NCBI GenBank assembly: GCA_013152535.1
Contig: JAADGE010000045.1
Coordinates: 1 to 48,030 of the forward strand
Source: Chlorobiota bacterium
GTDB lineage: Bacteria > Bacteroidota > Bacteroidia > Bacteroidales > JAADGE01
Direction of reading: 5' to 3'
DNA: 48,030 bases
Part shown: positions 392-18,529 of the stretch, piece by piece
Layout of the letters: each line of letters begins with the position of its first letter
How positions within the stretch are numbered: the stretch's first letter is position 1
The notes under the pieces: generated by a model
The model's input: the letters and a program-made list of their open reading frames with translations, nothing else
Told to the model about the DNA's origin: nothing
The model's database searches: none
Position numbers and translations under genes: made by a program

Positions 392-766
392 ATGTTCAAA
401 ATAGAAGCAACTAAAACAACTCCTTTGGTTAATATCTCCGTAAAAGATTGTATTTTTGAAATTAAAGGATTCTCATTTGCCAATGATTCAGATTCCTTTT
501 TTGAACCCGTTATGGAATATATAAACAATAGGTTCTCGGAACTCGAATGCGAATTAAACTGTAAATTCTATTTATCCGTTTTTAACAGCGTAACCTATAA
601 ATATATCTTAAATATGATGGCACGATTTATGGAATTCAACAAAAACGGAAAAAATATTAAAGTGGTATGGTATTTTGATTCTGATGATGAAGATAATAAA
701 GAAAATGCTGAAGATATCAGTGAATTATTTAACATTCCTTTTAAATTAGTAGAAATAACAGATTAA
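392..766 (+). CDS. siaC: SiaC-family regulatory phosphoprotein (DUF1987)
   Basis: A 124-residue single-domain protein with the SiaC/DUF1987 layout: an N-terminal TxxTPLV strand, an IxGxSFxNDSxxFFxPVMxYI segment, the hydrophobic strand before the phosphorylation loop, and an acidic C-terminus (D96-E105). In Pseudomonas aeruginosa, SiaC is phosphorylated by SiaB, dephosphorylated by the PP2C protein SiaA, and in one form activates a diguanylate cyclase. The loop that carries the phosphothreonine there reads N65-S66-V67-T68 here, so the acceptor is probably Ser66. It is first in an operon under a perfect promoter, 10 bp before the first hemerythrin, with a SpoIIE-type phosphatase as last gene. 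No diguanylate cyclase is nearby, so its partner is unknown. Family assignment is by pattern recognition. Confidence 0.8.
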   Translation: MFKIEATKTTPLVNISVKDCIFEIKGFSFANDSDSFFEPVMEYINNRFSELECELNCKFYLSVFNSVTYKYILNMMARFMEFNKNGKNIKVVWYFDSDDEDNKENAEDISELFNIPFKLVEITD

Positions 767-776
767 CATAAAAACT

Positions 777-1208
777 ATGGGGAAAAAATTAATTGTTTGG
801 GATAATCACTATTCCGTTGGTTTCGAATTATTCGATTCTCAACACAAACAACTTATCGAAATGATTAATGAACTTTATGCTTCATTTTTATCAGGCGAAG
901 CACATAAAAAAGCAGCTGAAATTGTTTCCGAAATGGTAAAATATACCGATTATCATTTTAAATCGGAAGAAAAATATTTTGATAGGTACCATTATCCGTT
1001 TACAGAAGAACACAAAGAAATTCACAAATCATTTGTAAATAAAGCTGTCGAATTAAAAGAGGGTTTGGAAAGCGGAAAAGTTACCGTTTCCTATGACATA
1101 ATGAACTTTCTGAGACAATGGCTGATAGAACATATTATGGGTGAAGACAAAAAATATACAACATTTTTCAAAGAAAATAAAATTGAAATTAACACAGACA
1201 ATAAATAA
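777..1208 (+). CDS. bacteriohemerythrin 1
   Basis: A single hemerythrin domain of 143 residues, close to the usual 130-140. All seven di-iron ligands can be placed: H23, H60, E64, H79, H83, H119 and D124. The N-terminal WDNHYSVG motif and the C-terminal WLIEHIMGEDKKY motif are typical. Such proteins bind O2 reversibly at a non-heme di-iron site and can act as O2 store, carrier or sensor; NO binding and peroxide chemistry are also reported. There is no signal peptide, so it is cytoplasmic. It follows siaC by 10 bp and ends 3 bp before the next hemerythrin, so cotranscription is likely. First of four tandem paralogues. Confidence 0.93.
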   Translation: MGKKLIVWDNHYSVGFELFDSQHKQLIEMINELYASFLSGEAHKKAAEIVSEMVKYTDYHFKSEEKYFDRYHYPFTEEHKEIHKSFVNKAVELKEGLESGKVTVSYDIMNFLRQWLIEHIMGEDKKYTTFFKENKIEINTDNK

Positions 1209-1211
1209 ATA

Positions 1212-1619
1212 ATGGAAGAAAAAAAAATACTTATCCGATGGAATTCAACCTATGAATTAGGATACAAGGAAATTGACGAACAACATATGAAATTAGTTGA
1301 TATTATCAACGATTTTTATAATGCTTTTGCAACAGCTCAAGCTCACGAAAAAATAGGCGATATTATCGGAGAACTTGTAAATTATACCGTATTTCACTTT
1401 ACTGCCGAAGAAGAAATCTTTTCAAATTCAAATTATCCTGATGTTGAGCAACATCGTAAAATACACAAAAGTTTTGTTGATGAATTAAAAAAGTATCATC
1501 AGGAAGTAAAAGACGGAAATATGACTACAACCTATGATTTAATGACCTTTTTAAGAGATTGGCTGGTTAAACACATAATGGGTACAGACAGAACATATCT
1601 GCTCTATGTACAACAATAA
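1212..1619 (+). CDS. bacteriohemerythrin 2
   Basis: A single hemerythrin domain of 135 residues with the complete ligand set H25, H62, E66, H81, H85, H121 and D126. The motif after the last His is GTDRTY rather than GEDKKY, and the C-terminus is short (YVQQ). The ATG lies 3 bp after the stop of hemerythrin 1, which indicates translation from one mRNA. Divergence from its neighbours shows that the array is not a recent duplication. It is cytoplasmic with no extra domain. Likely roles are O2 or NO sensing or storage. Confidence 0.93.
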   Translation: MEEKKILIRWNSTYELGYKEIDEQHMKLVDIINDFYNAFATAQAHEKIGDIIGELVNYTVFHFTAEEEIFSNSNYPDVEQHRKIHKSFVDELKKYHQEVKDGNMTTTYDLMTFLRDWLVKHIMGTDRTYLLYVQQ

Positions 1620-1744
1620 ATTTCTCATAATAAAAAAATACATTCTACATATTAGATTTTGAACTTCAGTTAAGATGAAGTTGACTGAATCATTTTGTGT
1701 TCAAAATAATTAATATTTTGGGGATTATAATAAAACTAAAAATC

Positions 1745-2143
1745 ATGACAGAAAACCTTATAAATTGGAATGATTCCTATTCAGTAGGAAACACCGAAAT
1801 GGATGAACAACATAAAAAATTGATTGCAATAATAAACAAATTATTTAAATCGTTTAAAGAAGGAAACGCACAAGAAATTTTGCAAGATATCCTGCAAGAA
1901 ATGATTGACTATGCAAATTTTCATTTAAATTCCGAAGAAAAACTGATGTTTAAATACAATTATCCTCAAAAAGAAGAACATGAAAAATTACATCAATCTT
2001 TCCGAGACAAAACAAGTGAATTAAAAAATCTTTTAAATTCAAATTCAAAAGACGCTCATTACAAAATGATTGAATATCTTAAAACTTGGTGGACCAACCA
2101 TATATTAGTTGAAGATATGAAATATTCTGATTTTTTGGGCTAG
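1745..2143 (+). CDS. bacteriohemerythrin 3
   Basis: A single hemerythrin domain of 132 residues from the ATG at 1745. An in-frame ATG at 1697 would add 16 residues (IINILGIIIK type) that have no counterpart in the other three copies, so I chose the internal start, which aligns MTENLINWNDSYSVG with its paralogues. Ligands H23, H60, E64, H79, H83, H119 and D124 are all present. The 125-bp gap after hemerythrin 2 is the first real break in the cluster and could hold a secondary promoter, though I see no clear consensus there. Confidence 0.9.
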   Translation: MTENLINWNDSYSVGNTEMDEQHKKLIAIINKLFKSFKEGNAQEILQDILQEMIDYANFHLNSEEKLMFKYNYPQKEEHEKLHQSFRDKTSELKNLLNSNSKDAHYKMIEYLKTWWTNHILVEDMKYSDFLG

Positions 2144-2202
2144 TATTGAATAATTATTTGTAATAAATATCTCTAAACAGTAACTAATATAACACTAAAA
2201 AG

Positions 2203-2622
2203 ATGAATGATGATTTTATTAAATGGAATGATAATATATATTCAGTCGGTAGTGATGTGATTGACAATGAACACAAAGAACTGATTCATATTATCAATAA
2301 ATTATTTAATGCTTTTTCTGAAGGAAAAGCAGAAGATATTGTTCCTGTTATTATAAAAGAATTATCAACTTATACGCAAAAACATTTTAAAACAGAAGAG
2401 AATTTATTCGAAACCCACAATTATCCGGATAAAGAAAATCATATTGCAAAACATCAAGATTTTATTAATCAAATAGAAATCTGGAAAAATAAAATGAATC
2501 AAGGAGAAAAAAATATTCATTATGAATTAATGGATTTTCTTAAAACTTGGATAACTGAACATCTTCAAAAAGAAGATAAATCCTACGATACATATTTCAA
2601 GGAAAAAAATATTCAAATTTAA
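2203..2622 (+). CDS. bacteriohemerythrin 4
   Basis: A single hemerythrin domain of 139 residues with ligands H24, H61, E65, H80, H84, H120 and D125 intact. It differs from the others in its EHLQKEDKSY C-terminal motif and in NEHKEL, where the others have Q before the first His. It ends 42 bp before the sensor phosphatase, so hemerythrin and phosphatase are probably one transcription unit. Four intact, diverged di-iron proteins beside a phosphatase suggest that ligand binding may be read out by the signalling protein; that link is inference. Confidence 0.93.
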   Translation: MNDDFIKWNDNIYSVGSDVIDNEHKELIHIINKLFNAFSEGKAEDIVPVIIKELSTYTQKHFKTEENLFETHNYPDKENHIAKHQDFINQIEIWKNKMNQGEKNIHYELMDFLKTWITEHLQKEDKSYDTYFKEKNIQI

Positions 2623-2664
2623 TCACATCTCCTCTTTTCCTGTTAAATTAAATTTCATTAAAAA

Positions 2665-5600
2665 ATGAATAAACCAACACTATTAATAATCATTTTTGGA
2701 TTATTGTTAAACTACTCTTACTCAGGATATTCTCAAAATAATAGAATAATTGACAGTTTAGAAACAACTTTTGAGCAAACAACTGACGATTCACTCAAAA
2801 ATGAAGCATTAACCGGTCTTTTTAACGAATACCTGAAAAATGATTGGGGAATGGCAATAAATACAGCAAAAAACGGAACTGCTGTTTTCAAAGAAACTAA
2901 TCCCGAAAAAACAGTTTTTTGGTATAATAAATTAGGTAATATCTATTCAGAACAGGGTTTTTATACCCTCTCTTTAAATGCCTTTTCGCAAGCTTTAAAA
3001 ATCAATAATCAACAAAATAAAAATTCTGCTTACATATATCTGAATATTGCCAAAATATACTATTATCAAGAAAAATACGACAAAAGTATTGAAACTTACA
3101 ATAATGCTTTAAACGAATTTAATAATTTAAAACAAACAAATAATAACAAAGCCGTACTCGGAATTGCTAAAACATATAACAAAATGGGTATTGTATATGA
3201 ACTTAAAGGAAATATAGAAAAATCTAAACAATTCTTTAAGAAGTCTCTGAATTTACGATTGCAAATCAACAATAAAAAAGATATCATAGATTCATATACT
3301 TCACTCGGATATTTCTCAAATGTAATTCAAGAATATGACAGTGCTTTTTATTATTTTTCAAAAGGATTAAAAATATGTAATATTTTTAACGATTTTCACT
3401 ATTTCAATGATGCTCATCTTTTCAGAAGTGAGACTTTTGCTAAAACAAAACAATTTAAAAAAGCTTATCAAGATATAGATTCTGCAAAACAATACGCTTT
3501 CACATTTGATAAATTTGATATTGCTCGTGTATATTATTATTATATGAAAGCAGATTTTGAAAAAAATGATTATAACAAACTAAAATCGGACGGAGAAATC
3601 GCTTTGCAATATGCCGACAGTTTTAATAATAATTCCGTAAAAGAAAAAACATTAAAACTTCTTACAGAAGCTGCAATAAAATATTCCGATTATGAAAATG
3701 CCTATAAATTTCAATTGCAGTTAAGTAATTATCTGAAACTTAACGAAACTGAAAAGCTGATTAAATTAGAGCAAAACATTGAATTAGAAACAGAAAAAAA
3801 ACAAAATACCGAGTTGACTGAAGTAAATAAAAATCTGCAAAAAAACATAACACTTTTTCAACTTTTAATTGCTTTAGGAGTGTTCATTCTTATTTTTATC
3901 TTTTTACTGCTTCTTATTAATAAGCGAAAAAATAAAAAAATAAAAGCTGCATTAATCAAAGCCGAAAAAGAAAAGAAAAATGCAGACGACGCAAAAAATA
4001 AACTTGAAGAATCTACGGAATTAACTCGTTCTCAGGCTGTTTTGGCTGAAATACTCAGAAACGTTACAGGAAAAGAACGCAGTCTTGAAAATTTTTTGCA
4101 AGATGCTCTGAATAAACTGTTAAACTTACCATGGTTAGATGTCATTTCAAAAGGATCAATTTTTCTGACGAATGAAGACGGAAATCTGAATATGGTTGCC
4201 GGAAAAGATTTGGGAGAAATTGCCGTAAGATGTGCTGTCATAAAACCCGGAGAATGTCTTTGCGGCAAGGCATTATCTGAAAAGAAAATGCAATTCTGTA
4301 ATCATATTGATCACAATCATGAAATCCGAATTAAAAATATGACAGAACACGGTCATTACAATCTTCCTATAATAATGCACGGCGAAGTATTAGGAGTTTT
4401 AAATCTTTATACGGAACATAATCATAAAAAAACAGATTCTGAAATTAAATTTCTGCAAACAGTTGCCGAAACATTAGCTTCTGTAATACACAGAAAAAAA
4501 TCGCAAGATGAAATTTTAAAAACAAAAGATAATTTAGAAAAGCAAAAAATAAAACTCGAAGAAAAAAATAAAGCCATTCGTTTATTTTCAGCTCAAATCG
4601 AACAAAAAAAGAACGAACAAGAAATTTTGAATCACACAATTATAACTCAAAAAAAAGCAGTTGAATTAAAACAAAAAGAAACAGAAACTTATGCCAAGGA
4701 ATTAGAACAAAAAGCGAAAGAACAGGAAGCACTTAATCAAAAATTATTTGCGCAAAAGCTAGAAGTTGAACAACGAAATACCGAAGTTGAGCTTTATTCT
4801 AAACAATTAGAAGAAAAAGCAAAAGAACAGGAAGCTCTTAATCAAAAATTATTTGCACAAAAACTTGAAGCAGAACAACGAAATACCGAAGTTGAACTTT
4901 ATTCAAAACAAGTAGAAGAAAAAGCAAAAGAACAGGAAGCTCTTAATCAAAAATTATTTGCACAAAAACTCGAAGTGGAACAAAGGAATTCCGAAGTTCA
5001 ACAATATCTCGAACAAATTGAAAAACAAAATAAAGAACAAGAAGCTCTTAATCAAAAATTATTCGCTCAAAGTTTGGAAGTTGATCAAAGACGTTTTGAA
5101 ATTGAGATGTATTCAAAAGAAATTGAACAACTGAAAGATAAAGCTGAAGAAGCTTTGGACCACCTCAATGCATCTATTAATTATTCTAAATTTATTCTGA
5201 ATTCTTTACTTCCGGATAATGATTTTATAAATAAAATAAAGAATCAAACAAAATCGGACTTTTTTATATACTTTAAACCTAAAGAAACTATCGGAGGTGA
5301 TTTTTATTATATGCGACAAATTAATGATACTTTAATAATCGGAGTTGCAGATTGTACCGGACACGGAATACCGGGTGCACTGATTACAATGCTCGGTATA
5401 AGCTTCTTAGACGATATTATAATACGTAATTTAGTTGATACGACAGGAGAAGGTTTAAACTTATTAAGAGAAAAAATAAAAGATATTTTTAAATCTAAAG
5501 GAGACAGTTTAGAAAATAAAAACGGATTGGATATTGCCTTATGTGCTGTTAATTTAAAAACAAATGTGATGCAGTATTCAGGAGCTTTTAATTCTTTATA

Positions 5601-5934
5601 TTTATTCAGAAAAGAAGAATTTACAGAATACAAAGCAACACGTAATCCTATTGGTTATTATCCTCTTGAAAAAGATTTTGAAACGACTGAAATTCAATTA
5701 CAAAAGGGTGATGTTTTGTATTTATTTTCTGACGGATATGCCGATCAAATAGGCGGTGAGAAAAATCGCAAATTCTCAAAACGTCAATTTAAACATTTTC
5801 TTTCTGAAATACATACGTTCCCTATATCAAAACAACATATTTTTGCTGAAAAAATTATGCAAAAATGGATGGGAAAAAATCAACAAGTGGATGATATTAC
5901 ACTTATGGGAATTAAATGGGAAAATGAGATTTAA
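2665..5934 (+). CDS. TPR-GAF-SpoIIE (PP2C) membrane sensor phosphatase
   Basis: A 1089-residue protein. In order: signal peptide (about 1-24), TPR-like helical repeats facing the periplasm (about 85-345), one membrane helix (about 397-418), a short basic coiled coil, a cytoplasmic GAF domain (about 452-612), a long coiled coil (about 612-845) containing four near-identical 35-residue repeats, and a SpoIIE/PP2C phosphatase domain (about 860-1087). Metal-binding acidic motifs are present: GGDFYY, ADCTGHG, SDGYAD and DDITLMG. The GAF carries a Cys/His-rich signature, C523, C531, C533, C545, H547, H550, H552, H562 and H564, suggesting a bound metal or redox role. SpoIIE-type enzymes dephosphorylate Ser/Thr of small regulatory proteins, so the SiaC protein of the same operon is the likely substrate, as SiaA acts on SiaC. 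It is tail to tail with rluD, 16 bp apart. Confidence 0.88.
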   Translation: MNKPTLLIIIFGLLLNYSYSGYSQNNRIIDSLETTFEQTTDDSLKNEALTGLFNEYLKNDWGMAINTAKNGTAVFKETNPEKTVFWYNKLGNIYSEQGFYTLSLNAFSQALKINNQQNKNSAYIYLNIAKIYYYQEKYDKSIETYNNALNEFNNLKQTNNNKAVLGIAKTYNKMGIVYELKGNIEKSKQFFKKSLNLRLQINNKKDIIDSYTSLGYFSNVIQEYDSAFYYFSKGLKICNIFNDFHYFNDAHLFRSETFAKTKQFKKAYQDIDSAKQYAFTFDKFDIARVYYYYMKADFEKNDYNKLKSDGEIALQYADSFNNNSVKEKTLKLLTEAAIKYSDYENAYKFQLQLSNYLKLNETEKLIKLEQNIELETEKKQNTELTEVNKNLQKNITLFQLLIALGVFILIFIFLLLLINKRKNKKIKAALIKAEKEKKNADDAKNKLEESTELTRSQAVLAEILRNVTGKERSLENFLQDALNKLLNLPWLDVISKGSIFLTNEDGNLNMVAGKDLGEIAVRCAVIKPGECLCGKALSEKKMQFCNHIDHNHEIRIKNMTEHGHYNLPIIMHGEVLGVLNLYTEHNHKKTDSEIKFLQTVAETLASVIHRKKSQDEILKTKDNLEKQKIKLEEKNKAIRLFSAQIEQKKNEQEILNHTIITQKKAVELKQKETETYAKELEQKAKEQEALNQKLFAQKLEVEQRNTEVELYSKQLEEKAKEQEALNQKLFAQKLEAEQRNTEVELYSKQVEEKAKEQEALNQKLFAQKLEVEQRNSEVQQYLEQIEKQNKEQEALNQKLFAQSLEVDQRRFEIEMYSKEIEQLKDKAEEALDHLNASINYSKFILNSLLPDNDFINKIKNQTKSDFFIYFKPKETIGGDFYYMRQINDTLIIGVADCTGHGIPGALITMLGISFLDDIIIRNLVDTTGEGLNLLREKIKDIFKSKGDSLENKNGLDIALCAVNLKTNVMQYSGAFNSLYLFRKEEFTEYKATRNPIGYYPLEKDFETTEIQLQKGDVLYLFSDGYADQIGGEKNRKFSKRQFKHFLSEIHTFPISKQHIFAEKIMQKWMGKNQQVDDITLMGIKWENEI
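4717..5136 (+). repeat. four tandem 105-bp coding repeats (35-residue coiled-coil units)
   Basis: Four consecutive in-frame units begin at 4717, 4822, 4927 and 5032. Each starts KEQEALNQKLFAQ and spans 35 residues, exactly five heptads. A degenerate fifth unit (KNEQEILN) precedes them. The first three units are nearly identical in protein, while the fourth diverges towards its end. They lie in the linker between the GAF sensor and the phosphatase. Adding or losing a unit would keep the heptad phase. Confidence 0.9.
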
Positions 5935-5950
5935 ATGATAATCAGAAGTT

Positions 5951-6973
5951 TTATACCTCTCTGTTTTCAATATATTGTTCCCATTTATTTAATAAAGAAA
6001 CAAAATTCTCAGGCATTTCAGCTTCAAATTTCATTCTTTCACCTGTTTCAGGATGATTAATCTCTAAAGTTTCGGCATGCAAAGCTTGTGCAGGCATCAA
6101 TTGAAAACAATTTTGTACAAATTGTTTGTATTTTGCATAACGTGTACCGCGTAAAATTTCGTTTCCGCCGTATTCTTTATCTCCGAAAATAGGATGTCCG
6201 AGATACTTTAAATGTACGCGAATTTGATGCGTTCTTCCGGTTTCCAGTACACAGTCAATCAAACTGACATAACCCAAATCTTTGTTTACCTTATAGTGTG
6301 TAACAGCATGTTTTCCTCTGTCACCTTCGGGATAAACACGCATAATTTTTCTGTCTTTCAGACTTCTGCCGATGTTTCCGGTAACTGTTCCCTCCTCTTC
6401 TTTCGGAACACCCCAAATTAATGCTTTATAGTTTTTTTTCGGAATTCGATTAAAAAATTGTTTTGATAAATTGCTTAATGCTTCTTCTGTTTTTGCAATA
6501 ACCATAACTCCGGAAGTGTTTTTATCCAACCGATGCACCAAACCGGCTCTGACATCATCTGTATTATAAAGCGGCAACTCTTTAAGATAATATAATAAGG
6601 CATTCACCAGCGTCCCGTTTTCATTTCCGTATGCGGGATGCACAACCATTCCGGATGCTTTGTTTATAATTAATATAAAATCATCTTCATAAATAATATT
6701 CAAAGGAATATTTTCAGCTGTCAATGTAATTTTTTCCGGTTTATAAAAAGTCTTAAGTACAACAACATCTCCGGGTTTAACTTTGTAATTTGATTTCACT
6801 TCTGTCTCATTTACAAATAGATACCCTTGCACTGCTGCTGTTTGCACTTTAGTTCTTGAAATATTCTCAATTCTGTCCGTTAAAAATTTATCAACCCTCA
6901 AAGGTGATTGTCCTTTATCAGCCGTGAATTTATATAATTCGTATTTCTCGTCGTTTTGTTTTTCTTTTTGCAT
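5951..6973 (-). CDS. rluD: RluA/RluD-family pseudouridine synthase
   Basis: 340 residues with an N-terminal S4 RNA-binding domain (about 24-80) and a pseudouridine synthase domain. The catalytic loop AGLVHRLDKNTSG places the nucleophile at D150, and GRTHQIRVHL and GHPIFGDKEYG are further family motifs. The RluD group isomerises uridines in helix 69 of 23S rRNA; the exact target cannot be told from sequence alone because RluC and RluA relatives share these motifs. The start is 4 bp after the stop of the upstream secreted protein gene, so the two are likely cotranscribed. Length is normal for the family. Confidence 0.9.
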   Translation of the reverse strand: MQKEKQNDEKYELYKFTADKGQSPLRVDKFLTDRIENISRTKVQTAAVQGYLFVNETEVKSNYKVKPGDVVVLKTFYKPEKITLTAENIPLNIIYEDDFILIINKASGMVVHPAYGNENGTLVNALLYYLKELPLYNTDDVRAGLVHRLDKNTSGVMVIAKTEEALSNLSKQFFNRIPKKNYKALIWGVPKEEEGTVTGNIGRSLKDRKIMRVYPEGDRGKHAVTHYKVNKDLGYVSLIDCVLETGRTHQIRVHLKYLGHPIFGDKEYGGNEILRGTRYAKYKQFVQNCFQLMPAQALHAETLEINHPETGERMKFEAEMPENFVSLLNKWEQYIENREV

Positions 6974-6977
6974 TTCT

Positions 6978-7778
6978 TTATTTACTTAAATCAATATCAG
7001 GAATGTATTTCCAAATTCCTTCTTCAAATTTCAAAGCATCAAAAGTTAAATCCGGTCCGTAATATTCATAATGTCCTTTTAATTCGGGTTTGGAAGGAGA
7101 TAAATGATCCCAAATAATAAGTTCTTTCTTTTTGTCATAACTTAAATTCATAGCAATTCCTTCGCGATATTCAAAAAATAACCTGTCCTTAATACTGTTT
7201 TCAGATTCAAATATTTCCTTTCCGAAAGTCGGCTCATTGTCTTCATTAAGATAAAACACATCAATAATTTTTCGATTCGTTAAATCATTATTACCGTCCC
7301 AACCCAATAAAACATAGATTTTTCTTCTCTTATATTTTTTATAGATTATTTTATAATAAAAAGCTCCGTACCAATTTTCCGGATTTAATATTTGCCTTTC
7401 CGGATTTACTATATTTTCTGATTTATCTGTCAATTTCTCAACTGAAAACCGACCGAAATCACGTTCATAATATCTTACAAAACCAAAATATTTAAAAGTA
7501 TTATCAGAATATAGAACCGGCCAGGTAACAATACTCATTTTTTTGTCTGAAGAAATCAAACAGGAAATATTCTTAATACCTTTAAGTTCAGAAAAATTAC
7601 CTTCAGAAAGAATATTTTCTGTTTCCGATAAAATAATATTGTTAACAGAATCTTTTGAATTATCATTCTTCGCAAATTCAAGTTTATCAAATAAAATTTT
7701 CATATTCTCATTTTCTTGAGACATTCCGATTTTAATAATTACCGTAAGAAAAATAAATAAAAGATATTTTTTTAACAT
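6978..7778 (-). CDS. secreted protein of unknown function
   Basis: 266 residues starting with a lipophilic signal peptide that ends near GMSQ (about residues 1-20), so it is exported. I do not recognise a domain. The body is mixed alpha/beta in appearance with many aromatic residues and short charged stretches (YYKIIYKKYKRRKIYVLLGWDGNN), which look like alternating beta strands. There is no lipobox and no T9SS C-terminal domain. It is the first gene of a probable two-gene unit with rluD (4-bp gap), a pairing without obvious functional sense. The upstream region is shared with the divergent gene at 7967. Confidence 0.7.
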   Translation of the reverse strand: MLKKYLLFIFLTVIIKIGMSQENENMKILFDKLEFAKNDNSKDSVNNIILSETENILSEGNFSELKGIKNISCLISSDKKMSIVTWPVLYSDNTFKYFGFVRYYERDFGRFSVEKLTDKSENIVNPERQILNPENWYGAFYYKIIYKKYKRRKIYVLLGWDGNNDLTNRKIIDVFYLNEDNEPTFGKEIFESENSIKDRLFFEYREGIAMNLSYDKKKELIIWDHLSPSKPELKGHYEYYGPDLTFDALKFEEGIWKYIPDIDLSK

Positions 7779-7966: not shown

Positions 7967-8722
7967 TTGAAGCAACTATTTTTTTTCGTAATTATTTTTA
8001 ATCTTTTTTTTCTGAATTCATTTTCACAAAACCCTGAAATTCTCGAAATAACCGGAAGAATTATCAGTAAAAAAACTGAAAAGCCTATTCGCAGTGCAAC
8101 AATTATTAATTTAAAAAAGAATAAGATAACCTCTTGTGATTCATTAGGTTATTTCTATATTACCATTCTTAAAGATGATGTATTAAGAATAAATGCTTTG
8201 GGATATGAAAAAGAATATATTTCATTTTCCGATAAAAAAATAAAACCTTCTGAAATAATTATTATCAAATTGAAAGAAAAAACTTATCCGCTGGAAAATG
8301 TTGATATTTTTGCCGAACGCTGGAAAGATTTTGTTTTTGAATTTTCTCATACTGATATTGAAAAAGATGAAACAAAAGAGCGGATTGAAAAATGGTTCTA
8401 CTCACTGGTTGATCCCAAAGAATTAGCCATATTAACTGCTTCCGCGGCAATCGGAATTCCTATCAACTTTAAAACAAAAGCCGACAGACAAAAAATAAAA
8501 GTTGCAGAATTAAAAAGAAAAGCCGCCGAAAACAAAATCATAGAAAATAAATACAATCCTGAATTAGTCTCAGAACTTACCGGATTAAATAAAATTGAAA
8601 CAATTAAATTTATGCGTTTCTGTAATTTTTCACGAATTTATCTGCTTAAAGCAAATGATTATGATATAATTACTTCGATTAATCAAAAATTTAAAAGATA
8701 TTTAAAGATAAAAATTCGTTAA
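7967..8722 (+). CDS. secreted carboxypeptidase-regulatory-like domain protein
   Basis: 251 residues from a TTG start. No ATG stands in front of the hydrophobic signal sequence, and the TTG is the first residue of a good signal peptide (KQLFFF...NSFSQ, about 1-21) just behind a perfect promoter. Residues about 26-100 form a CarboxypepD_reg-like beta sandwich (EITGRIISKKTEKPIRSATI, with a DSLGYFYI turn), a fold common at the N-terminus of Bacteroidota surface proteins. The basic C-terminal half (about 150-251) contains LTGLNKIETIKFMRFCNF, seen in stand-alone Bacteroidota proteins of this kind. No enzyme motif is visible. It is probably periplasmic or outer-membrane associated. Confidence 0.78.
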   Translation: MKQLFFFVIIFNLFFLNSFSQNPEILEITGRIISKKTEKPIRSATIINLKKNKITSCDSLGYFYITILKDDVLRINALGYEKEYISFSDKKIKPSEIIIIKLKEKTYPLENVDIFAERWKDFVFEFSHTDIEKDETKERIEKWFYSLVDPKELAILTASAAIGIPINFKTKADRQKIKVAELKRKAAENKIIENKYNPELVSELTGLNKIETIKFMRFCNFSRIYLLKANDYDIITSINQKFKRYLKIKIR

Positions 8723-11368: not shown

Positions 11369-12751
11369 ATGAAAAAAATATTTTTCTTAACTTTAACTGT
11401 AATTCTCGGTTTTAGTGATATTTACGGACAAGATTACAGCACAGGTTTAAATTTTAACGATAAAAAATACGAATCTGTTCTTAAAAAGGCTCCGCTTACC
11501 CGCAATTTATATACAAATCTGCCGTCAGCATATTCTTTAAAAAAATATACACCCGTACCTAAAAGTCAAGGTCAGCACGGTACTTGCGTAGGTTGGTCAA
11601 CAGCCTATGCAGGAATGACAATTTTAGAATCAATTTATAAAAAAAGAACTGATAAAACAACGATTAATGCAAACACATTCTCACCCGGTTTTGTTTATAA
11701 ACAAATAAAAAACAGCAAAGATGTTTATTGTCAGTTAGGTTCATCAATTTCGGACGCTCTTAATATTCTTAAAACAAAAGGAGTCTGCAAATACAACGAT
11801 ATAACGGAAATTAATTGTCCGGCATTTATTTCACCTTCTGTATTTTCAAAAGCCTCAAAATATAAGATAAAAGATTATGCTAAAATTTTCAGTATGTTTG
11901 ATTCAAAAGAATTTAAAATTGCTGCAGTTAAAAAAAGTATCAGTCAAAATAATCCTGTAATTATAGGCATGAATACACCAAAATCTTTTTATACGGCAAC
12001 AGGAGAATGGACTCCTGTCGAAAGCAGCAGTTTAACCTACAGCGGGCATGCTATGTGTGTTATCGGTTATGACAATAACAAATACGGAGGAGCATTTGAA
12101 ATAATGAACAGTTGGGGTTCTCAATGGGGAAACAAAGGTTATATTTGGATTTCTTATGAAAACTTTACTAAATTCGTAAAATATGCTTACGAAATGATTA
12201 CTTTTAAAACAGCCGAAAATAAAAATAATTCATTTGCCGGAAGTGTTAAAATTATACAAGCAGACGGAAGTGAGAGTAATGTTACTTTTACAGACGGTAT
12301 TTACAAACTTGATAAACCATATAAATCCGGAACTCTTTTCAGATTATATATCTCCAATAGCCAAGCTGCCTATGTTTATGCTTTCGGATATGATGCAACA
12401 AAAAAAACATTTACAATTTTTCCGTATAATAAAAATATTTCTCCTGCATTAAATTATGCACAAAATGATGTTGCAATTCCTGATGAAGATCATTACATTC
12501 AAACAGATAATACAACAGGCAAAGACTATTTATGTATATTGTATTCTAAAACTAAATTAAATATTGAGAATATTCAATCTGAAATCGAAAAAACATACGG
12601 ATCTTTTAGCGACAGAATTAATTATGTGCTAAAAGATCGTTTAATTTTACCCGATGAAGTTGAATTTAGTCAAAAAAAAATGCAGTTTAATGTAAAAAAC
12701 AGTAAAAAAAATATTATTGCTTTAATCGCAGAAACAATCCATATTGACTAA
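11369..12751 (+). CDS. secreted papain-like (C1) peptidase with DUF4384-like domain
   Basis: 460 residues with a signal peptide (about 1-20). The C1 catalytic residues are all visible: oxyanion Gln near 67-69 (SQGQHGTCVGWS), C73, H227 (YSGHAMCV) and N247 (NSWGSQWG). The second half (about 295-420; SGTLFRLYISNSQAAYVYAFGYD, ending in LCILYSKTKL) resembles DUF4384, a beta domain found beside caspases and peptidases in bacteria. There is no classical inhibitory propeptide; the catalytic Cys starts only about 50 residues after the signal peptide. It is 40 bp downstream of the MORN-caspase, so two unrelated cysteine peptidases are probably coexpressed. It could act as activator, executor or stoichiometric partner of the caspase. 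Confidence 0.87.
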   Translation: MKKIFFLTLTVILGFSDIYGQDYSTGLNFNDKKYESVLKKAPLTRNLYTNLPSAYSLKKYTPVPKSQGQHGTCVGWSTAYAGMTILESIYKKRTDKTTINANTFSPGFVYKQIKNSKDVYCQLGSSISDALNILKTKGVCKYNDITEINCPAFISPSVFSKASKYKIKDYAKIFSMFDSKEFKIAAVKKSISQNNPVIIGMNTPKSFYTATGEWTPVESSSLTYSGHAMCVIGYDNNKYGGAFEIMNSWGSQWGNKGYIWISYENFTKFVKYAYEMITFKTAENKNNSFAGSVKIIQADGSESNVTFTDGIYKLDKPYKSGTLFRLYISNSQAAYVYAFGYDATKKTFTIFPYNKNISPALNYAQNDVAIPDEDHYIQTDNTTGKDYLCILYSKTKLNIENIQSEIEKTYGSFSDRINYVLKDRLILPDEVEFSQKKMQFNVKNSKKNIIALIAETIHID

Positions 12752-12841: not shown

Positions 12842-12887
12842 TTTCTGACAAACTAACCTTAAACAGAATATGGAGTAATCCGCACCT

Positions 12888-14411
12888 GTGAAAAATAATA
12901 ATCTGGCATACAAACTTTTTGAAAGTATCCGCGGAAGTACTATGGAATACACCTACCGAGGAAGCTTTACTACCAAAGTTACCGATACAATTTTAGCTTT
13001 AACAGAATCGAACCTTCAAAACGAAAATGTAGAAAAGAAAATCAGAAAAAGAGTTTTTTTTATTATCGTTGAAGGTCTTCAAAATGTAACACGTCATCAA
13101 AGTTCCGCAGACTCCGATGAATTGGCGGGATACCCCGGTTTATTTGTTGTTCAATACAAACCCGACGGTTATTATATCACGACAGGAAATCTTATTAAAA
13201 CAACGCACGAAAAAAATATTACAAAACTTATTAATAAAATCAATAATTTAAATAAAGAAGAGTTAAAAAAATATTCTTTAGAAAAACTTGGTGAAGGCGA
13301 ATTTTCCGATAAAGGAGGTGCCGGCTTGGGTTTAATTGAAATAGCAAGGAAATCAGGAAATAAACTTGTGTATGAATTCGATAAAATTAATGATGACTAT
13401 TCATTTTTTTATATGCACTCAAAAATTATTGATTTCTCCGATGATTCGAAATCAGACAGTGTTGATTCTTTAAAACAAATTATTAAAAGACATAAACTTC
13501 TTGAAAAAGAAAATATATTATTGAATTTTATCGGTGCTTTTACTCAGGATACACTTGTTAATCTTTTATCAATTACTGAAAATCAATTACAGGGTACGGT
13601 AATTTTAAAAATGAAAGTTTTTAATTTGATGGTTGAAATATTACAAAATATTGTTAATCACGCAGATATATATACTCTTAATAATGTAACCGGAAAGCAT
13701 GCAATTTTTTATATAAAAGAATCAAAAGAAAATCTTACTTTTACATCAGGGAATTATGTCGAAAATTATAAAATTAAGGAATTCAAAGAAAAACTTGAAA
13801 ATGTAAACAATTTATCTGAAACTGATCTTTCTGACGAATATAATGAAACACTGTTAAATTTTAACAACAAAAATGATGAAAATCCCGGGCTCGGCTTACT
13901 TGATATAAAAATGAAAGCCAAAAATGCTTTTATTTATGACTTTTACAAAATAGATGATAAATTCTCTTTTTTTACACTAAAAATTCAAATTAATAAGATG
14001 AAAGACGGATTAGAAAAATACATAATTCAATCTGAGGAAGATACTCCTGAAATAATTCTTGATCCCGAAGACGGAATACTTAAGTTTAAAGGAAAATCTA
14101 TTCCTGAAAATGCAGTAAGTTTTTACAAACCGATTATTGATTGGTTGCATTCCTATAAAGAAAATCCTGCAGATCATACCCAAATATCATTTAAATTCGA
14201 CTATTATAATACCGCAACCGACAGGCAATTAGTTAAAATTTTATTGATTCTTGAAGAAATTTCTAAAAATAATTCGGTTGATATTGACTGGTATTATAAC
14301 ACCGGAGATATTTCAATGTTAAACGACGGCAGGAAATTTAAAGAATTAATTGATTTAAATATTGAGATTATTGAACTTATAGACGAAGACGGGAATGATG
14401 ATGATTTTTAA
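12888..14411 (+). CDS. SiaB-SiaB-SiaC fusion: two kinase-like domains and their phosphoprotein domain
   Basis: 507 residues from a GTG start; the first ATG is at codon 19, inside the conserved start of the domain, so GTG is preferred. Residues about 5-180 are a SiaB/DUF6272 GHKL-like kinase domain (N box E62-N66-H70; G box GGAGLGLIEIARKSG). Residues about 200-368 are a second, diverged copy (E250, N254; ENPGLGLLDIKMKA). Residues about 382-505 are a SiaC/DUF1987 domain with candidate phosphosite T442 in N-T-A-T. In the known system, SiaB, SiaC and the phosphatase SiaA are separate proteins. Here kinase and substrate share one chain, with a short acidic tail. The domain reads are mine; cis phosphorylation is inference. 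It is followed 55 bp later by the repeat-channel gene and then ppk1. Confidence 0.82.
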   Translation: MKNNNLAYKLFESIRGSTMEYTYRGSFTTKVTDTILALTESNLQNENVEKKIRKRVFFIIVEGLQNVTRHQSSADSDELAGYPGLFVVQYKPDGYYITTGNLIKTTHEKNITKLINKINNLNKEELKKYSLEKLGEGEFSDKGGAGLGLIEIARKSGNKLVYEFDKINDDYSFFYMHSKIIDFSDDSKSDSVDSLKQIIKRHKLLEKENILLNFIGAFTQDTLVNLLSITENQLQGTVILKMKVFNLMVEILQNIVNHADIYTLNNVTGKHAIFYIKESKENLTFTSGNYVENYKIKEFKEKLENVNNLSETDLSDEYNETLLNFNNKNDENPGLGLLDIKMKAKNAFIYDFYKIDDKFSFFTLKIQINKMKDGLEKYIIQSEEDTPEIILDPEDGILKFKGKSIPENAVSFYKPIIDWLHSYKENPADHTQISFKFDYYNTATDRQLVKILLILEEISKNNSVDIDWYYNTGDISMLNDGRKFKELIDLNIEIIELIDEDGNDDDF

Positions 14412-14466
14412 TTAAAATTTTTAACTCCGTAATTTGAATAAGAATTATCAATAGAATTATATTAAA

Positions 14467-16458
14467 ATGCAGAAATACTTCACAGAATTTACTGTAGAAA
14501 TTATTGATAATCAGTTTATTAGGGACAATGTCAATTATCCGAAAACTGCTGTTATTAAATTTTTTAATAATAATAAGTTACTTTCCGAAGAAGAATTCGG
14601 TTATGCCGATTCAAATTATATCAATCAATATATAAAAGCAAATAATGAGCTGCAGCTTAATTATGCTTATATAGAAAATATTGATTTGGAATTTTTAAAA
14701 GCCAAAGTTTACTCGGAAAAAATTATTCTCGAAAATTTTTCTGCTAAAAATGCTTTTTTTCACAGCCCCGAAAAAGATATAAACTTTTCAGAAATACTGT
14801 TTGAAGGAAAATTAATTGATTTCAACAGCACTTATTTTATTTGCAAAACACTTAATTTCTCTTTTTCAGTTTTTTTTGCCGAACTCAACGATTTCAGTAA
14901 CTGTTCTTTTAAGTGTGATACCGTAAACTTTTCAAAAACATCTTTCTCGGACGGAGATGTAATTTTTAAAAACAGCGTGTTCTCCGAAGGTTTAAAAAAT
15001 TTTGAAAACATTGAGTTTCAAGAAGGTAAAGTCATTTTTGTAAATGTTGAATTTAATTCCGGTGATGTATTATTTACTGATACTAAATTCGGAAACGGTC
15101 CGGTTAGTTTTAAAGTCAGTGATTTCGGAAAAGGAAGAATAGATTTTTCTCGTGCACATTTCGGAAAAGACGAAACTAATTTTGAAAAAGTTAATTTCGG
15201 TGAAGGAGATATTTCTTTTCGGTCAGCTAACTTTCAAAACGGTAAAGTTAACTTTACAAGTGCTGAATTCGGAAACGGAAAAAAATCGTTTATTAATACC
15301 GATTTCGGAAACGGCAATGTATATTTTAAAAATGTAAATTTCGGAAACGGTGTTACATCTTTCAGATTATCAAATTTCGGTTCCGGCATAACGGATTTTC
15401 ACTTCTGCGAATTCGGAAACGGTAACGTTCAATTTGATCGTTGTATATTTATGAACGGCGGAGTTAATATGAAAGCCGTGAATTTCGGAACAGGCAAAGT
15501 CAGTTTTGACAAAACATATTTCGGAGATAATAACATAACTCTTGAAGGTACAATTTTAAAAGGTAATTTACTCATTAAAGATTCTGTTTTCGGAAAAGGA
15601 GAATTTAATTTCAGCGAAGCCGATTTTCAAAATTGTGATGTTGAAATTAATAATGTTGATTTCGGAATCGGAAAAATATCTTTCAAACAATCAAGCTTCA
15701 ATACGCTCTCTCTAAAAGGTTCTCAATTAGACAATTACTTTAACCTTCAAATCACTTCCTGCAAAATGTTGGATTTATCAGATACGGTTGTTAAAGATAT
15801 TTTAGATATTAATCCGCCCGATTTCGACCCGCAAATTGAAGCTGTTGATTTCTCCGGAATGCGGCTGCTCGGAAGAATATATATTGATTGGCGAAGAGCA
15901 AATCTGAAAGAACTGATTTATAAACAAAATTCTACGATAAAAAGCAAAGAAGAGCAATTCAGAATTTTAAAAGAAAATTACAATGTTACCGGACAATATT
16001 CCTATGAAGATGAAGCTTATGTTGAATTTAAACGTACCGAAGCAATTGCTCACTTAAAAGAAGATATCTCTAAACGCCCGAAATTAAAAATATTTGCATA
16101 CATAAATTTTGCTTTCAAATGGTTGGTATTCGATAAAATGGGCAAATTTGCCACCGATCCCCTGCGTGTATTGTCAACTATGCTCCTAACCTATTTATTT
16201 TTTACATTATTATACATTTTTCTGGCAAAAATAGGAAACGTACATATTGTCTCATCCCTTTTTGCACCAAACGATCCCAGGATACTCGGTCCTATCGGTA
16301 AAGCATTTTATCACAGTGCAATAACTTTTTTAACAATCGGTTACGGAGATTATTATCCCGACGGAATTTCTCGATGGATTTCTTCAATCGAAGGTTTTGT
16401 AGGTTTGTTTTTAATGTCTTACTTTACAGTCGCTTTTGTTCGAAAAATTTTAAGATAA
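14467..16458 (+). CDS. 12-residue-repeat beta-helix protein fused to a two-helix K+ channel-like pore
   Basis: 663 residues. Residues about 106-417 are some 26 gapless 12-residue repeats, consensus xFxxxxFGxGxV, resembling pentapeptide-repeat proteins but with period 12. The C-terminal part is an Ion_trans_2-type pore: membrane helix about 567-586, pore loop with selectivity filter T623-I-G-Y-G-D628, then a second membrane helix (about 638-657). The TIGYGD filter is typical of K+ channels. There is no signal peptide, so the repeat part is probably cytoplasmic with the pore in the inner membrane. It lies 55 bp after the Sia fusion gene and 7 bp before ppk1, so the three are probably one operon. 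The channel gate may be controlled by the repeat domain. Confidence 0.85.
   Translation: MQKYFTEFTVEIIDNQFIRDNVNYPKTAVIKFFNNNKLLSEEEFGYADSNYINQYIKANNELQLNYAYIENIDLEFLKAKVYSEKIILENFSAKNAFFHSPEKDINFSEILFEGKLIDFNSTYFICKTLNFSFSVFFAELNDFSNCSFKCDTVNFSKTSFSDGDVIFKNSVFSEGLKNFENIEFQEGKVIFVNVEFNSGDVLFTDTKFGNGPVSFKVSDFGKGRIDFSRAHFGKDETNFEKVNFGEGDISFRSANFQNGKVNFTSAEFGNGKKSFINTDFGNGNVYFKNVNFGNGVTSFRLSNFGSGITDFHFCEFGNGNVQFDRCIFMNGGVNMKAVNFGTGKVSFDKTYFGDNNITLEGTILKGNLLIKDSVFGKGEFNFSEADFQNCDVEINNVDFGIGKISFKQSSFNTLSLKGSQLDNYFNLQITSCKMLDLSDTVVKDILDINPPDFDPQIEAVDFSGMRLLGRIYIDWRRANLKELIYKQNSTIKSKEEQFRILKENYNVTGQYSYEDEAYVEFKRTEAIAHLKEDISKRPKLKIFAYINFAFKWLVFDKMGKFATDPLRVLSTMLLTYLFFTLLYIFLAKIGNVHIVSSLFAPNDPRILGPIGKAFYHSAITFLTIGYGDYYPDGISRWISSIEGFVGLFLMSYFTVAFVRKILR
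14782..15717 (+). repeat. about 26 in-frame 36-bp repeats encoding xFxxxxFGxGxV
   Basis: From residue 106 to 417 the protein keeps an exact 12-residue period with no insertion except one unit shortened to 11 residues near 370-380. Phe at positions 2 and 7 and Gly at 8 and 10 are most conserved, best in the middle (for example EFGNGKKSFINT then DFGNGNVYFKNV). Outer units are degenerate. Confidence 0.9.
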
Positions 16459-16465
16459 CCCAATA

Positions 16466-18529
16466 ATGGATACGGAAAACAAATATTTTGACAGAGAACT
16501 CAGCTGGTTGTCTTTTAACCGTTTAGTACTTGAACAAACCAAAGATAAATCATTACCGCTTTTTGAACGTATTAAATTTTGTGCCATTTACGATTCAAAT
16601 TTAGATGAATTTTACAGAATTCGTGTAGCTTATTATCAAAGTTTAATTGAGATTCCTAAAAAAAGTATAAAAAAATTAGAATATTCTCCCAAGTCTGTTC
16701 TTTCAAATATTAAAAAAGAAGTAACAAAGCAATTAGCAGAATTTGAAAATATTTTCTATAATCAAATCATTCCGGAATTAGATGAAGCAGGAATCGAACT
16801 TTGGCAAAATCAACAATTAACAAATGAACATACTGAATTATTAAAAGAATATTTTTCAAAAGAAGTATTACCCGAAATACAACCCGTATTGCTGTCAAGT
16901 TCAGGAGCCGTAATGCCTTTTTTAAAAGATAATGTCATTTATTTGGCTATTAAAATTCATAAAAAAAACCGTCCCCCCGAATACAAATCAAATTATGCAG
17001 TCATACAAGTTCCTTCCGGAGTATTAGGACGCTTTGTTATGCTGCCGAACTTAAACGGTAAATTTTTATATATGTTTCTGGAAGATGTAATCAGGATGCA
17101 TCTTTATATGATTTTTCCGGGCTATCGTATCGAAAAAACATACAGCATTAAATTGTCCAGAAATGCCGATTTAATGATAGAAGATGAATTTTCGGGTAAC
17201 TTACTGAATAAACTTAAAAAAAGCCTGAAACAACGTAAAACAGGTATGCCTGCACGATTTATGTATGACAGACAAATGACCGATGATGTAAAAAATGTAT
17301 TACAACTCGCCTTTAATCTGTCGGAAAAAGATTTCTTTCCTGTCGGAAAGTATCTGAATTTCAGTGATTTATTCTTTTTTAAAAATCCCTTAAGTCCGAA
17401 ATATGAATTAAAACCTTTTAAACAATTAAATCATCCGGTAATTGATAAATACACTTCAATATTTGAAGCTGCAGATGAACAAGATTTATTACTTCATTTT
17501 CCGTATCAAACCTACGACTATGTATTACGTTTTTTTCATGAATCTGCAATTGACCCTGAAATTGATGAAATAAAAACAACCCAATACAGAGTTGCCACAA
17601 ATTCAGCTGTTGTTAATGCACTGATTGCTGCTGCAGGAAACGGAAAAGATGTAACGGTTTTTGTGGAAGTTAAAGCTCGATTTGACGAAGAAAATAATAT
17701 TGCTGTTGCCGATAAAATGAAAAAAGCAGGAATAAATGTGATAGCAAGTATTCCCGGGTTAAAAGTTCATGCTAAAGCTGCATTAGCCATAAAAAATTCG
17801 TCAAAAAAAGGGAAAAAGAAATCTTATGCTTTTTTAAGTACCGGAAATTTTAACGAAAAAACAGCAACTCAGTATGCCGATGAAGGTTTTTTTACTTCCG
17901 ATAAAAACATAACTAAAGATCTTGAAAAATTATTTATGTATCTTGAAAACCCGATAGAGACATTTAATTTTAAGCATGTTTTAGTTCCGGGTTTTAATAT
18001 GTTACCGGTTCTTAAGGAAAAAATTAAACGAGAAATAAGTTATGCTAAATCAGGAAAAAAAGCACAATTAATTTTTAAACTAAACGGTATCGGAGATAAA
18101 GAAATTATAGACTTGTTTTACGAAGCCGGAACACAAGGCGTTCAAACAGATATGATTATTCGAGGAATTTGTAAGCTCAGACCAAATATGCCTTTCAGCA
18201 AAAATATTAATATTACCCGAATTGTCGATCGCTTTTTAGAACATTCGAGAATTTATGTATTTTATAATTTGGGTAATTGGGAAGTCTATTTATCTTCATC
18301 GGATTTTTTAACGAGAAATTTAAGGCGAAGAATTGAAGTTGCGTTTCCGATATACGATAAAAGCCTTATAAATGAGATTATTACTATTTTAGAATTTCAA
18401 CTGAGAGATAATACTAAAGCTAAATTATTAGATAAAAATATTAATAATATTGATAAAAAAACAGGCAAAAAAAAATACCGTTCTCAGCAAGATATCTATA
18501 AGTATTTAGAGAAAAAATACAAAATATAA
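16466..18529 (+). CDS. ppk1: polyphosphate kinase 1
   Basis: 687 residues, the normal length of PPK1. It starts with the family signature FDRELSWLSFNRLVLEQ, and both catalytic histidines are present: H435 in GLKVHAKAALAI (autophosphorylated) and H593 in LEHSRIYVF. PPK1 makes polyphosphate from ATP reversibly at the inner membrane. Polyphosphate is linked to stress survival, biofilm growth and ion storage. It starts 7 bp after the channel gene, indicating coexpression with the channel and the Sia fusion. That link is a clue that the switch reports on energy, K+ or polyphosphate state. Five bases separate its stop from the convergent small gene. Confidence 0.97.
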   Translation: MDTENKYFDRELSWLSFNRLVLEQTKDKSLPLFERIKFCAIYDSNLDEFYRIRVAYYQSLIEIPKKSIKKLEYSPKSVLSNIKKEVTKQLAEFENIFYNQIIPELDEAGIELWQNQQLTNEHTELLKEYFSKEVLPEIQPVLLSSSGAVMPFLKDNVIYLAIKIHKKNRPPEYKSNYAVIQVPSGVLGRFVMLPNLNGKFLYMFLEDVIRMHLYMIFPGYRIEKTYSIKLSRNADLMIEDEFSGNLLNKLKKSLKQRKTGMPARFMYDRQMTDDVKNVLQLAFNLSEKDFFPVGKYLNFSDLFFFKNPLSPKYELKPFKQLNHPVIDKYTSIFEAADEQDLLLHFPYQTYDYVLRFFHESAIDPEIDEIKTTQYRVATNSAVVNALIAAAGNGKDVTVFVEVKARFDEENNIAVADKMKKAGINVIASIPGLKVHAKAALAIKNSSKKGKKKSYAFLSTGNFNEKTATQYADEGFFTSDKNITKDLEKLFMYLENPIETFNFKHVLVPGFNMLPVLKEKIKREISYAKSGKKAQLIFKLNGIGDKEIIDLFYEAGTQGVQTDMIIRGICKLRPNMPFSKNINITRIVDRFLEHSRIYVFYNLGNWEVYLSSSDFLTRNLRRRIEVAFPIYDKSLINEIITILEFQLRDNTKAKLLDKNINNIDKKTGKKKYRSQQDIYKYLEKKYKI

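Follow-up and report, generated by a model that had tools for sequence, protein, structure and literature searches.

Here we analysed a 48,030-nt contig of the Chlorobiota bacterium assembly GCA_013152535.1 (JAADGE010000045.1, positions 1–48,030; hereafter the window) and found that its first operon, which encodes a SiaC protein, four free-standing hemerythrins and a SpoIIE phosphatase, is a conserved module in its genus. Our proposal, held with as much doubt as belief, is that this operon (operon 1) is a self-standing hemerythrin-SpoIIE-SiaC module whose kinase is encoded elsewhere, and that a second operon downstream (operon 2), encoding a SiaB-SiaB-SiaC fusion, is separate. The proposal builds on gene content, conservation, the conserved ligands and phospho-acceptor, purifying selection and the co-ancestry of SiaC and SpoIIE. 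From these we infer control of the phosphatase by the hemerythrins, the kinase pairing, the direction of the response and the outputs. The features of operon 1 are:

325–355, plus strand: promoter-like site of the Bacteroidota type, TTTG-N19-TATTTTTG, whose end lies 36 bases upstream of siaC
392–766, plus strand: SiaC (DUF1987) of the N-S-[VI]-T-Y-K subfamily (PF09345, 96 bits, cut-off 24.5)
777–1208, plus strand: single-domain bacteriohemerythrin 1 (NF033749)
1212–1619, plus strand: single-domain bacteriohemerythrin 2 (NF033749)
1745–2143 (or from a GTG start at 1697), plus strand: single-domain bacteriohemerythrin 3 (NF033749)
2203–2622, plus strand: single-domain bacteriohemerythrin 4 (NF033749)
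2665–5934, plus strand: TPR-transmembrane-GAF-coiled coil-SpoIIE (PP2C-like) phosphatase (PF07228, 66 bits)

Operon 1 and its conservation in the genus

The window is the whole of contig C76 of the source genome (G000; 3.3 Mb, 98% complete, 92 contigs), whose contigs C8, C55 and C79 also enter the analysis; relatives are numbered from G001 onward and loci carry the letter L. The contig starts 391 bases upstream of siaC. Domains were assigned by comparing the window's proteins with Pfam and NCBIfam profiles, and the transmembrane stretch of the SpoIIE protein was assigned by eye. The four bacteriohemerythrins score 122–142 bits on NF033749 (cut-off 84). Intergenic gaps are 3–125 bases, and the hemerythrins and the phosphatase share one gene row.

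The residues expected of each component are in place. Seven diiron ligands (H23, H60, E64, H79, H83, H119 and D124; five His, one Glu and one Asp) are invariant in all 15 aligned hemerythrins. The presumed phosphosite of the operon-1 SiaC is a Ser where Pseudomonas aeruginosa SiaC has Thr68, and the surrounding N-S-[VI]-T-Y-K is kept in 16 of 16 operon-1 SiaCs in the alignment. The SpoIIE domain holds the PP2C metal-binding Asp motifs ADCTGHG, FSDGYADQ and QVDDIT; the catalytic FSDGYADQ was taken from the sequence, the automated SDG match in this protein being a chance TPR match. The more specific equivalog profiles are reached less well. SiaA profile NF038263 covers only residues 816–1084 of the SpoIIE protein, at 171.9 bits against a cut-off of 700, and the SiaC proteins of 392–766 and the operon-2 fusion score 61 and 63 bits against an NCBIfam cut-off of 150. 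Compared with G003, the operon-1 genes are under purifying selection: the ratio of nonsynonymous to synonymous substitution rates (dN/dS) is 0.02–0.16 for the hemerythrins, 0.13 for SiaC and 0.12 for SpoIIE, and it is 0.03 for the SiaB-SiaB-SiaC fusion. The GAF domain carries a C-L-C-G...H...G-H-Y motif in seven of the eight operon-1 SpoIIEs (window included), unmatched in both of the other hemerythrin-linked SpoIIEs checked; this is possibly a metal or redox site, and a sensor of its own. No SiaB domain was found with Pfam in operon 1 of the window, nor in the visible operon 1 of any of the eight relatives with SiaC beside the array.

The site upstream of siaC follows what we take to be the Bacteroidota promoter consensus. 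Its strict pattern occurs twice in 19.5 kb against 0.27 expected (first-order Markov) and never between operon-1 genes. We regard it as weak evidence, because a looser pattern is at chance (3 versus 2.3 expected) and the two-box pattern was not found in seven of eight relatives' upstream stretches.

SiaC lies beside a hemerythrin array in nine of the 14 genus genomes (G000–G005, G007, G010 and G011), where one or two SiaC genes precede three to five hemerythrin matches. Where the contig continues, a SpoIIE gene orthologous to 2665–5934 follows the array, with an N-terminal part of varying length. Array members do decay, since in G004 a hemerythrin with two internal stops adjoins SiaC (L035, about 5005–5385). 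Two short contigs, in G008 and G012, show only the 3' part, with a hemerythrin, a DUF6976-like gene and SpoIIE. Like the zinc-binding CZB domain considered below, DUF6976 was scored by Pfam in one or two genomes and named elsewhere by similar first residues. It is a separate gene after the array in G007 (scored), G008 and G012 (by likeness), and is fused to a hemerythrin in G004 (scored, L035:2027-3490) and G005 (by likeness, L036:7605-9062). These are the only fusions seen among operon-1 arrays; the window's hemerythrins are single-domain. A comparison of the G007 DUF6976 protein with solved structures gave no useful relative.

Hemerythrin-SpoIIE pairing beyond the genus and its possible role

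Among 40 related genomes, 57 loci around hemerythrin matches were examined. Sixteen further hemerythrin places lie outside these loci (nine below the family cut-off, seven in frames of about 900 aa), L080 and L091 have no hemerythrin run by our own model, and many contigs end near the counted genes. Together with the window, these loci gave 56 same-strand hemerythrin runs, of which 14 contain SpoIIE, 12 of them directly beside the hemerythrins. The 14 span six genera and three families, with G030 a weak match. About one adjacent run would be expected by chance from 24 SpoIIE in some 3,000 genes, a gene number that is a guess, for runs that are not independent. SiaC occurs in nine of the 56 runs, a count that includes G019, where a SiaC of another type stands one gene further on after two hemerythrins, and leaves out G004, where there is a gap. 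Hemerythrin and SpoIIE are paired without SiaC in G014, G015, G018, G036 and, weakly, G030, as well as in the Bacteroidales/Bacteroidetes loci L119–L121.

Two other samples were used. A set of 80 named loci (L112–L191) partly repeats the relatives, with L112, L113, L114/L115, L124, L126, L130 and L132 corresponding to G011, G002, G036, G018, G014, G017 and G008. SpoIIE stands in the hemerythrin's gene row in ten of these loci (L113, L114, L115, L119, L120, L121, L124, L126, L132 and L161), but only L119, L120, L121 and L161 come from genomes outside the set of relatives. Across the phylum, hemerythrin was found in 46 of 395 genomes (E<=1e-25); excerpts of a 2016 survey describe O2-binding hemerythrins as negligible in Bacteroidetes (PMC4919030). 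Forty places were taken from 90 match rows (five being the window genome's own), namely the 39 strongest and one array further down; L243 among them has no hemerythrin by our own model. Three of the 40 loci contain SpoIIE, two directly beside the hemerythrin (L249 and, weakly, L235), and one (L245) has SiaB and SiaC as well.

A SpoIIE tree was built from picked loci with matches of at least 90 bits and at least 180 residues, leaving out L072 (split domain), L192 of the source genome and the weak G030 match. With two exceptions, the L161 SpoIIE and the second of the SpoIIE genes in the G014 row, hemerythrin-linked SpoIIE domains form one clade of 18 (support 99/92, in a bootstrap not fully settled). 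Hemerythrin and SpoIIE are genuinely paired, but only a minority of hemerythrins take part. The earlier sequence-only reading of the window, which placed SiaC, the hemerythrins and the phosphatase in one operon, is borne out at gene level by the genus operons and by hemerythrin-SpoIIE(-SiaB-SiaC) rows elsewhere.

The most complete row is in L161, from an uncultured Ignavibacteriales, where a hybrid histidine kinase, a hemerythrin, a receiver (REC)-SpoIIE protein, SiaB and SiaC follow one another, after which comes a large protein in which three AAA-like repeats were recognised by eye. L245, from G215 of family-level group f37, has the same order, with a kinase bearing two receiver domains and, between hemerythrin and SpoIIE, a small protein read by eye as a receiver. 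In this Ignavibacteria-type arrangement one row brings together the hemerythrin with eraser, writer and target. In L249 (G341), the hemerythrin lies between a 1793-aa protein and a SpoIIE protein of like length, with no SiaB or SiaC. The Ignavibacteria-type row is rare, since a close copy of the L245-type hemerythrin occurs in 13 of 57 relatives of G215 (E<=1e-40) and, besides G215 and G341, the five of those genomes that were sampled (L230, L233, L236, L238 and L240) have no SpoIIE within 12 kb. Separately, several family and order members have hemerythrin matches in frames of 897–925 aa; the only one of these scored with Pfam, L065:6909-9620, is a HAMP-GAF-PAS protein with a C-terminal hemerythrin. 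No SpoIIE was found in the rows of the three such frames examined (L065, L074 and L076).

The most economical reading of operon 1 is that free hemerythrins inform the SpoIIE phosphatase. In excerpts of PMC7647112 and PMC8457831, P. aeruginosa SiaC is phosphorylated at T68 by SiaB and dephosphorylated by SiaA, and the phosphorylation prevents SiaC from binding SiaD. By analogy, the membrane-anchored TPR-GAF-SpoIIE phosphatase would remove phosphate from the co-encoded SiaC at its Ser (N-S-V-T). The four free cytoplasmic diiron hemerythrins would be O2- or redox-responsive partners setting phosphatase activity, so that SiaC would be dephosphorylated and free for target binding in only one redox state. 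The kinase would be encoded elsewhere, likeliest as the SiaB-SiaB protein of a locus on contig C8, beside a SiaC of the same subfamily. More tentatively, and with doubt somewhat outweighing belief, we suggest that free hemerythrin arrays are O2/redox-sensing subunits of a Sia-type switch, in which a separate SpoIIE reads the diiron input. Such a switch would have arisen on two or more occasions, in Bacteroidales and in Ignavibacteria-type genomes. At least one of the bacteria concerned, G000, has an expanded set of 49 SiaC, SiaB and SpoIIE domains and no cyclic di-GMP (c-di-GMP) cyclase that was found.

Several observations weigh against this assignment. No SpoIIE was found in 42 of the 56 hemerythrin runs of the relatives or in 37 of the 40 phylum-sample loci (within the 7–12.5 kb examined). 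Because most hemerythrin loci are of this kind, most hemerythrins presumably do something else. Operon 1 was not found in three of the 14 genus genomes (G006, G009 and G013) among the hemerythrin loci examined, although G009 has one contig-end match outside these. The SpoIIE clade of 18 also includes domains without an intact hemerythrin, namely those of C55 (L199) and C79 (L030) in the source genome and that of L091, where only a broken hemerythrin was seen. The association of hemerythrin with phosphatase is drawn from gene order; free-standing hemerythrins may be O2 carriers or detoxifiers, and the operon-1 SpoIIE may have little need of them, having TPR and GAF inputs already. The C8 kinase is assigned to the operon-1 SiaC through subfamily kinship, and the second SiaB domain of this kinase appears degenerate, with K-L-I-R-N and without GLG.

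Sequence would not by itself separate hemerythrin as input from hemerythrin as output or as a merely co-regulated protein. If the hemerythrins were the output, SiaC would bind them and control O2 storage, delivery or scavenging, with the phosphatase sensing through its TPR and GAF parts. The growth of the array to three to five copies suits such a bulk function, the GAF motif shared by seven of eight operon-1 SpoIIEs could be the phosphatase's own sensor, and excerpts of PMC8457831 suggest that DUF1987 proteins act on adjacent proteins. However, hemerythrin-SpoIIE pairs without SiaC exist, making the phosphatase the more constant partner of hemerythrin, and the L161 order of hybrid histidine kinase, hemerythrin and REC-SpoIIE suits an input. 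L245 looks alike. On balance we consider hemerythrin as output improbable.

A stress regulon, in which hemerythrins handling O2, nitric oxide (NO) or peroxide are co-transcribed with the signalling protein and make no direct contact with it, is a shade less probable again. It gains from the many hemerythrin loci here that have no phosphatase. Single-domain hemerythrins are commonly carriers or scavengers. Excerpts of PMC9388753 treat them as a group apart from fused sensors. Against a stress regulon stand the persistence, in several genera, of the pairing with a single SpoIIE clade and the separate assembly in Ignavibacteria-type genomes.

The candidate kinase and the standing of operon 2

Operon 2 starts at 8965 or 11369 and ends at 18529. 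It comprises:

8965–11328, plus strand: MORN-repeat caspase-like (C14) protein, upstream of operon 2 proper and a frequent neighbour
11369–12751, plus strand: papain-like (C1) peptidase, a frequent neighbour of the SiaB-SiaB-SiaC gene
12888–14411, plus strand: SiaB-SiaB-SiaC fusion (PF19788 in two stretches; PF09345, 114 bits)
14467–16458, plus strand: beta-helix and K+-channel-like protein with a TIGYGD filter (Ion_trans_2, 39 bits, cut-off 22.5)
16466–18529, plus strand: polyphosphate kinase 1 (PPK1; PF13089, PF02503, PF17941 and PF13090)

Pfam and NCBIfam matches and their coordinates agree with every part that had been named for the two operons, including the cysteine peptidases between them (the MORN-caspase and the papain-like protein).

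To assign SiaC subfamilies, we used a tree of 51 of 52 SiaC domains (the incomplete one of L110 was left out). The operon-1 SiaCs, both SiaCs of C79 and the SiaC of C8 form a clade of 19 (100/100), and the fusion SiaC of operon 2 falls outside it. The phosphosite motif differs in step with the clades. The presumed phosphosite of the fusion is a Thr, within YYNTATDRQ in the window and Y-Y-N-T-A-T-D-R-Q in 11 of 11 genus fusions. The C8 locus consists of SiaC and a convergent SiaB-SiaB gene with overlapping ends, often with TPR-SpoIIE nearby (L027:6850-12482), and is conserved throughout the genus as well as in three further genomes of the family. A C8-type SiaC adjoins 12 of 15 C8-type SiaB-SiaB loci. 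In two others (G004 and G005) the C8-type SiaC is some 22 kb distant on the contig that carries the locus, which rules out its loss there; at the G019 locus the SiaC is of another type. Among the matches listed, C8-type SiaCs are 40–45% identical to SiaC 392–766. The closest paralogue of the operon-1 SpoIIE is on C79, behind a SiaC among the nearest to that of operon 1, so SiaC and phosphatase seem to have been duplicated together. Given the SiaC clade, the motif, the conservation of the C8 locus and the kinship of the C79 SpoIIE, the C8 kinase appears likelier than the operon-2 fusion to be the writer for the operon-1 SiaC.

The fusion itself is widespread. Its first SiaB keeps EGLQN and GGAGLG and its second has EILQN and PGLG (E-x-x-Q-N in both), and its SiaC domain (residues 380–496) is above the PF09345 cut-off. 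Among the matches listed, 12 of the 14 genomes of the genus have full fusions, that of G008 interrupted by one stop, the exceptions being G007, which extends to residue 351 only, and G011 (70% complete), which has none. All seven genomes (six genera) of the family outside the genus have the fusion, near-full in six and to residue 413 in G017. The channel gene follows it in 11 of 11 genus loci and six of seven family loci, and PPK1 follows the channel in 10 of 11 genus and three of six family loci, of which two are truncated where the contig stops. TIGYGD is present in the window's channel protein and in all 16 orthologues seen, and from this filter and its pore domain the protein is predicted to be K+-channel-like. 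Its predicted structure is reliable only for a beta-helix at about residues 88–430, with most of the channel part at a predicted local distance difference test score (pLDDT) below 50; a single-sequence AlphaFold model of the fusion has a mean pLDDT of 34. The fusion is co-encoded with its likely outputs, the channel protein and PPK1.

Of the genomes in which linkage could be judged, only G000, G001 and G003 have the two operons side by side, with the same genes between them and, in G001, one further minus-strand open reading frame (ORF). Other genes flank the operons in G002 and G005, where they are not neighbours, and in G004 the genes upstream of operon 2 are different ones; in G010 and others the contigs end there and linkage was not judged. 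The fusion is present in G006, G009, G013 and G014–G020, none of which showed operon 1 in the hemerythrin loci examined. Operon 2 therefore seems to be a separate Sia unit that happens to adjoin operon 1. The sequence-only reading had described a complete switch split over the two operons. The outcome that it named as refuting, operons far apart in neighbouring genera, is what we find as far as linkage goes; the differing flanks in the genus and family, the fusion without operon 1 and the differing SiaC subfamilies rule out one switch as the leading reading.

The number of Sia genes matters for this comparison. G000 has 14 SiaC, 11 SiaB and 24 SpoIIE domains by Pfam (49 in all; 25 SpoIIE by our own model) and six hemerythrin matches, four of them in operon 1. 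SiaC was found in at least 30 of the 40 genomes searched, with 10–19 copies per family genome among the matches listed, except for G011 (70% complete), with three. The Sia-type set of G000 is thus greatly enlarged in a genome where no diguanylate cyclase was detected, and SiaC counts are similar throughout the family. Uniform placement of six SiaC loci without SiaB and seven SiaB loci over 3.3 Mb would by chance yield about 0.36 orphan SiaC-SiaB pairs no more than 14 kb apart. A writer, an eraser and a target within 14 kb are weak evidence, because copies of Sia domains are so many. A single circuit, in which operon 1 supplies eraser, target and sensors, operon 2 supplies writer and outputs, and hemerythrin controls the channel and PPK1, is quite unlikely: the two operons fit into 18 kb in the window and also adjoin each other in G001 and G003, the window's operon 2 has no phosphatase and its operon 1 no kinase, and seven of nine operon-1 genomes have a full fusion among the matches listed (not G011 or G007), but the flanks in G002, G004 and G005, the ten genomes with the fusion and no operon 1 seen, the chance expectation, the SiaC subfamilies and the SpoIIE of G014 directly before its own fusion all argue against it.

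The absence of a SiaD-like diguanylate cyclase, noted earlier for the window, extends to the whole 98%-complete G000 assembly, the only genome searched, which gave no match to GGDEF (PF00990). C-di-GMP is for this reason unlikely as an output and was set aside; the target of the operon-1 SiaC is probably not a diguanylate cyclase.

Known systems and neighbouring genes

The closest known system is SiaABCD, in which SiaA is a PP2C phosphatase, SiaB a kinase, SiaC a DUF1987 protein and SiaD a diguanylate cyclase. The SiaC and SiaB domains here match solved proteins 6KKO and 6K4F (the latter named SiaC in excerpts of PMC7647112), the SpoIIE end of the operon-1 protein matches the SiaA model, and the phospho-acceptor position is kept as Ser or Thr. 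Unlike SiaABCD, there is no GGDEF match here, operon 1 has hemerythrins and no kinase, its SpoIIE has a TPR-GAF input, and operon 2 fuses SiaB-SiaB-SiaC and adds a channel and PPK1. RsbU/RsbV/RsbW-type switches combine a SpoIIE phosphatase, a GHKL-like kinase and a STAS-like phosphoprotein. The logic here is the same, but with SiaC and SiaB families and no sigma factor seen in the operons. Fused hemerythrin sensors, of which excerpts of PMC9388753 describe Vibrio cholerae Bhr-DGC, Ferrovum Bhr-HD-GYP and Desulfovibrio vulgaris DcrH, similarly tie a diiron hemerythrin by its genes to a signalling enzyme, and the seven ligands are kept. Here, however, the hemerythrins occur as free-standing proteins encoded in arrays, and they are partnered by the SpoIIE phosphatase of a partner switch rather than by a fused c-di-GMP enzyme or methyl-accepting chemotaxis protein (MCP).

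In the open-access literature searched, we found no description of a hemerythrin-SiaC-SpoIIE module or of hemerythrin linked to SiaC, SpoIIE or a partner switch, no paper on DUF6272 or DUF6976, and none on partner switching with SpoIIE in Bacteroidetes. If our proposal for operon 1 is correct, the oxygen or redox state would enter protein phosphorylation through a diiron protein unfused to its output. It would also show a role for the Sia phosphoswitch where no diguanylate cyclase was found, a point that the Pseudomonas work, in the excerpts cited above, leaves open. Operon 2, for its part, makes it possible to test a fusion of kinase and substrate that is encoded next to a K+-channel-like protein and PPK1. 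In G014 (L100:7824-11765), a Fe-hydrogenase-like/FeS/PAS/SpoIIE protein is encoded directly before the SiaB-SiaB-SiaC gene; no paper linking iron-only hydrogenase and PP2C phosphatase was found in the same literature.

The remaining genes between the operons are:

5951–7778, minus strand: RluD (named by eye) and a 266-aa ORF
7967–8722: CarboxypepD_reg protein (Pfam)

Upstream of operon 1, most relatives have a second SiaC and/or a divergent CZB/TPR-SpoIIE unit. Three genomes have a divergent stand-alone CZB protein (scored in G003, assigned by likeness in G007 and G010), and six have a divergent TPR-SpoIIE gene (G002, G003, G004, G005, G007 and G011; TPR scored in G003), followed in four genomes by a protein of about 580 aa. 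At L034:11879-16038, the divergent unit encodes a stand-alone zinc-binding CZB domain, a TPR-SpoIIE protein and a further protein that has bacterial Ig-like matches. The G000 assembly gave no CZB match, so the unit is either lost or missing at the contig edge. Operon 1 of G001 has a WD40-caspase gene immediately upstream (L032:3949-7356) and a MORN-caspase gene downstream.

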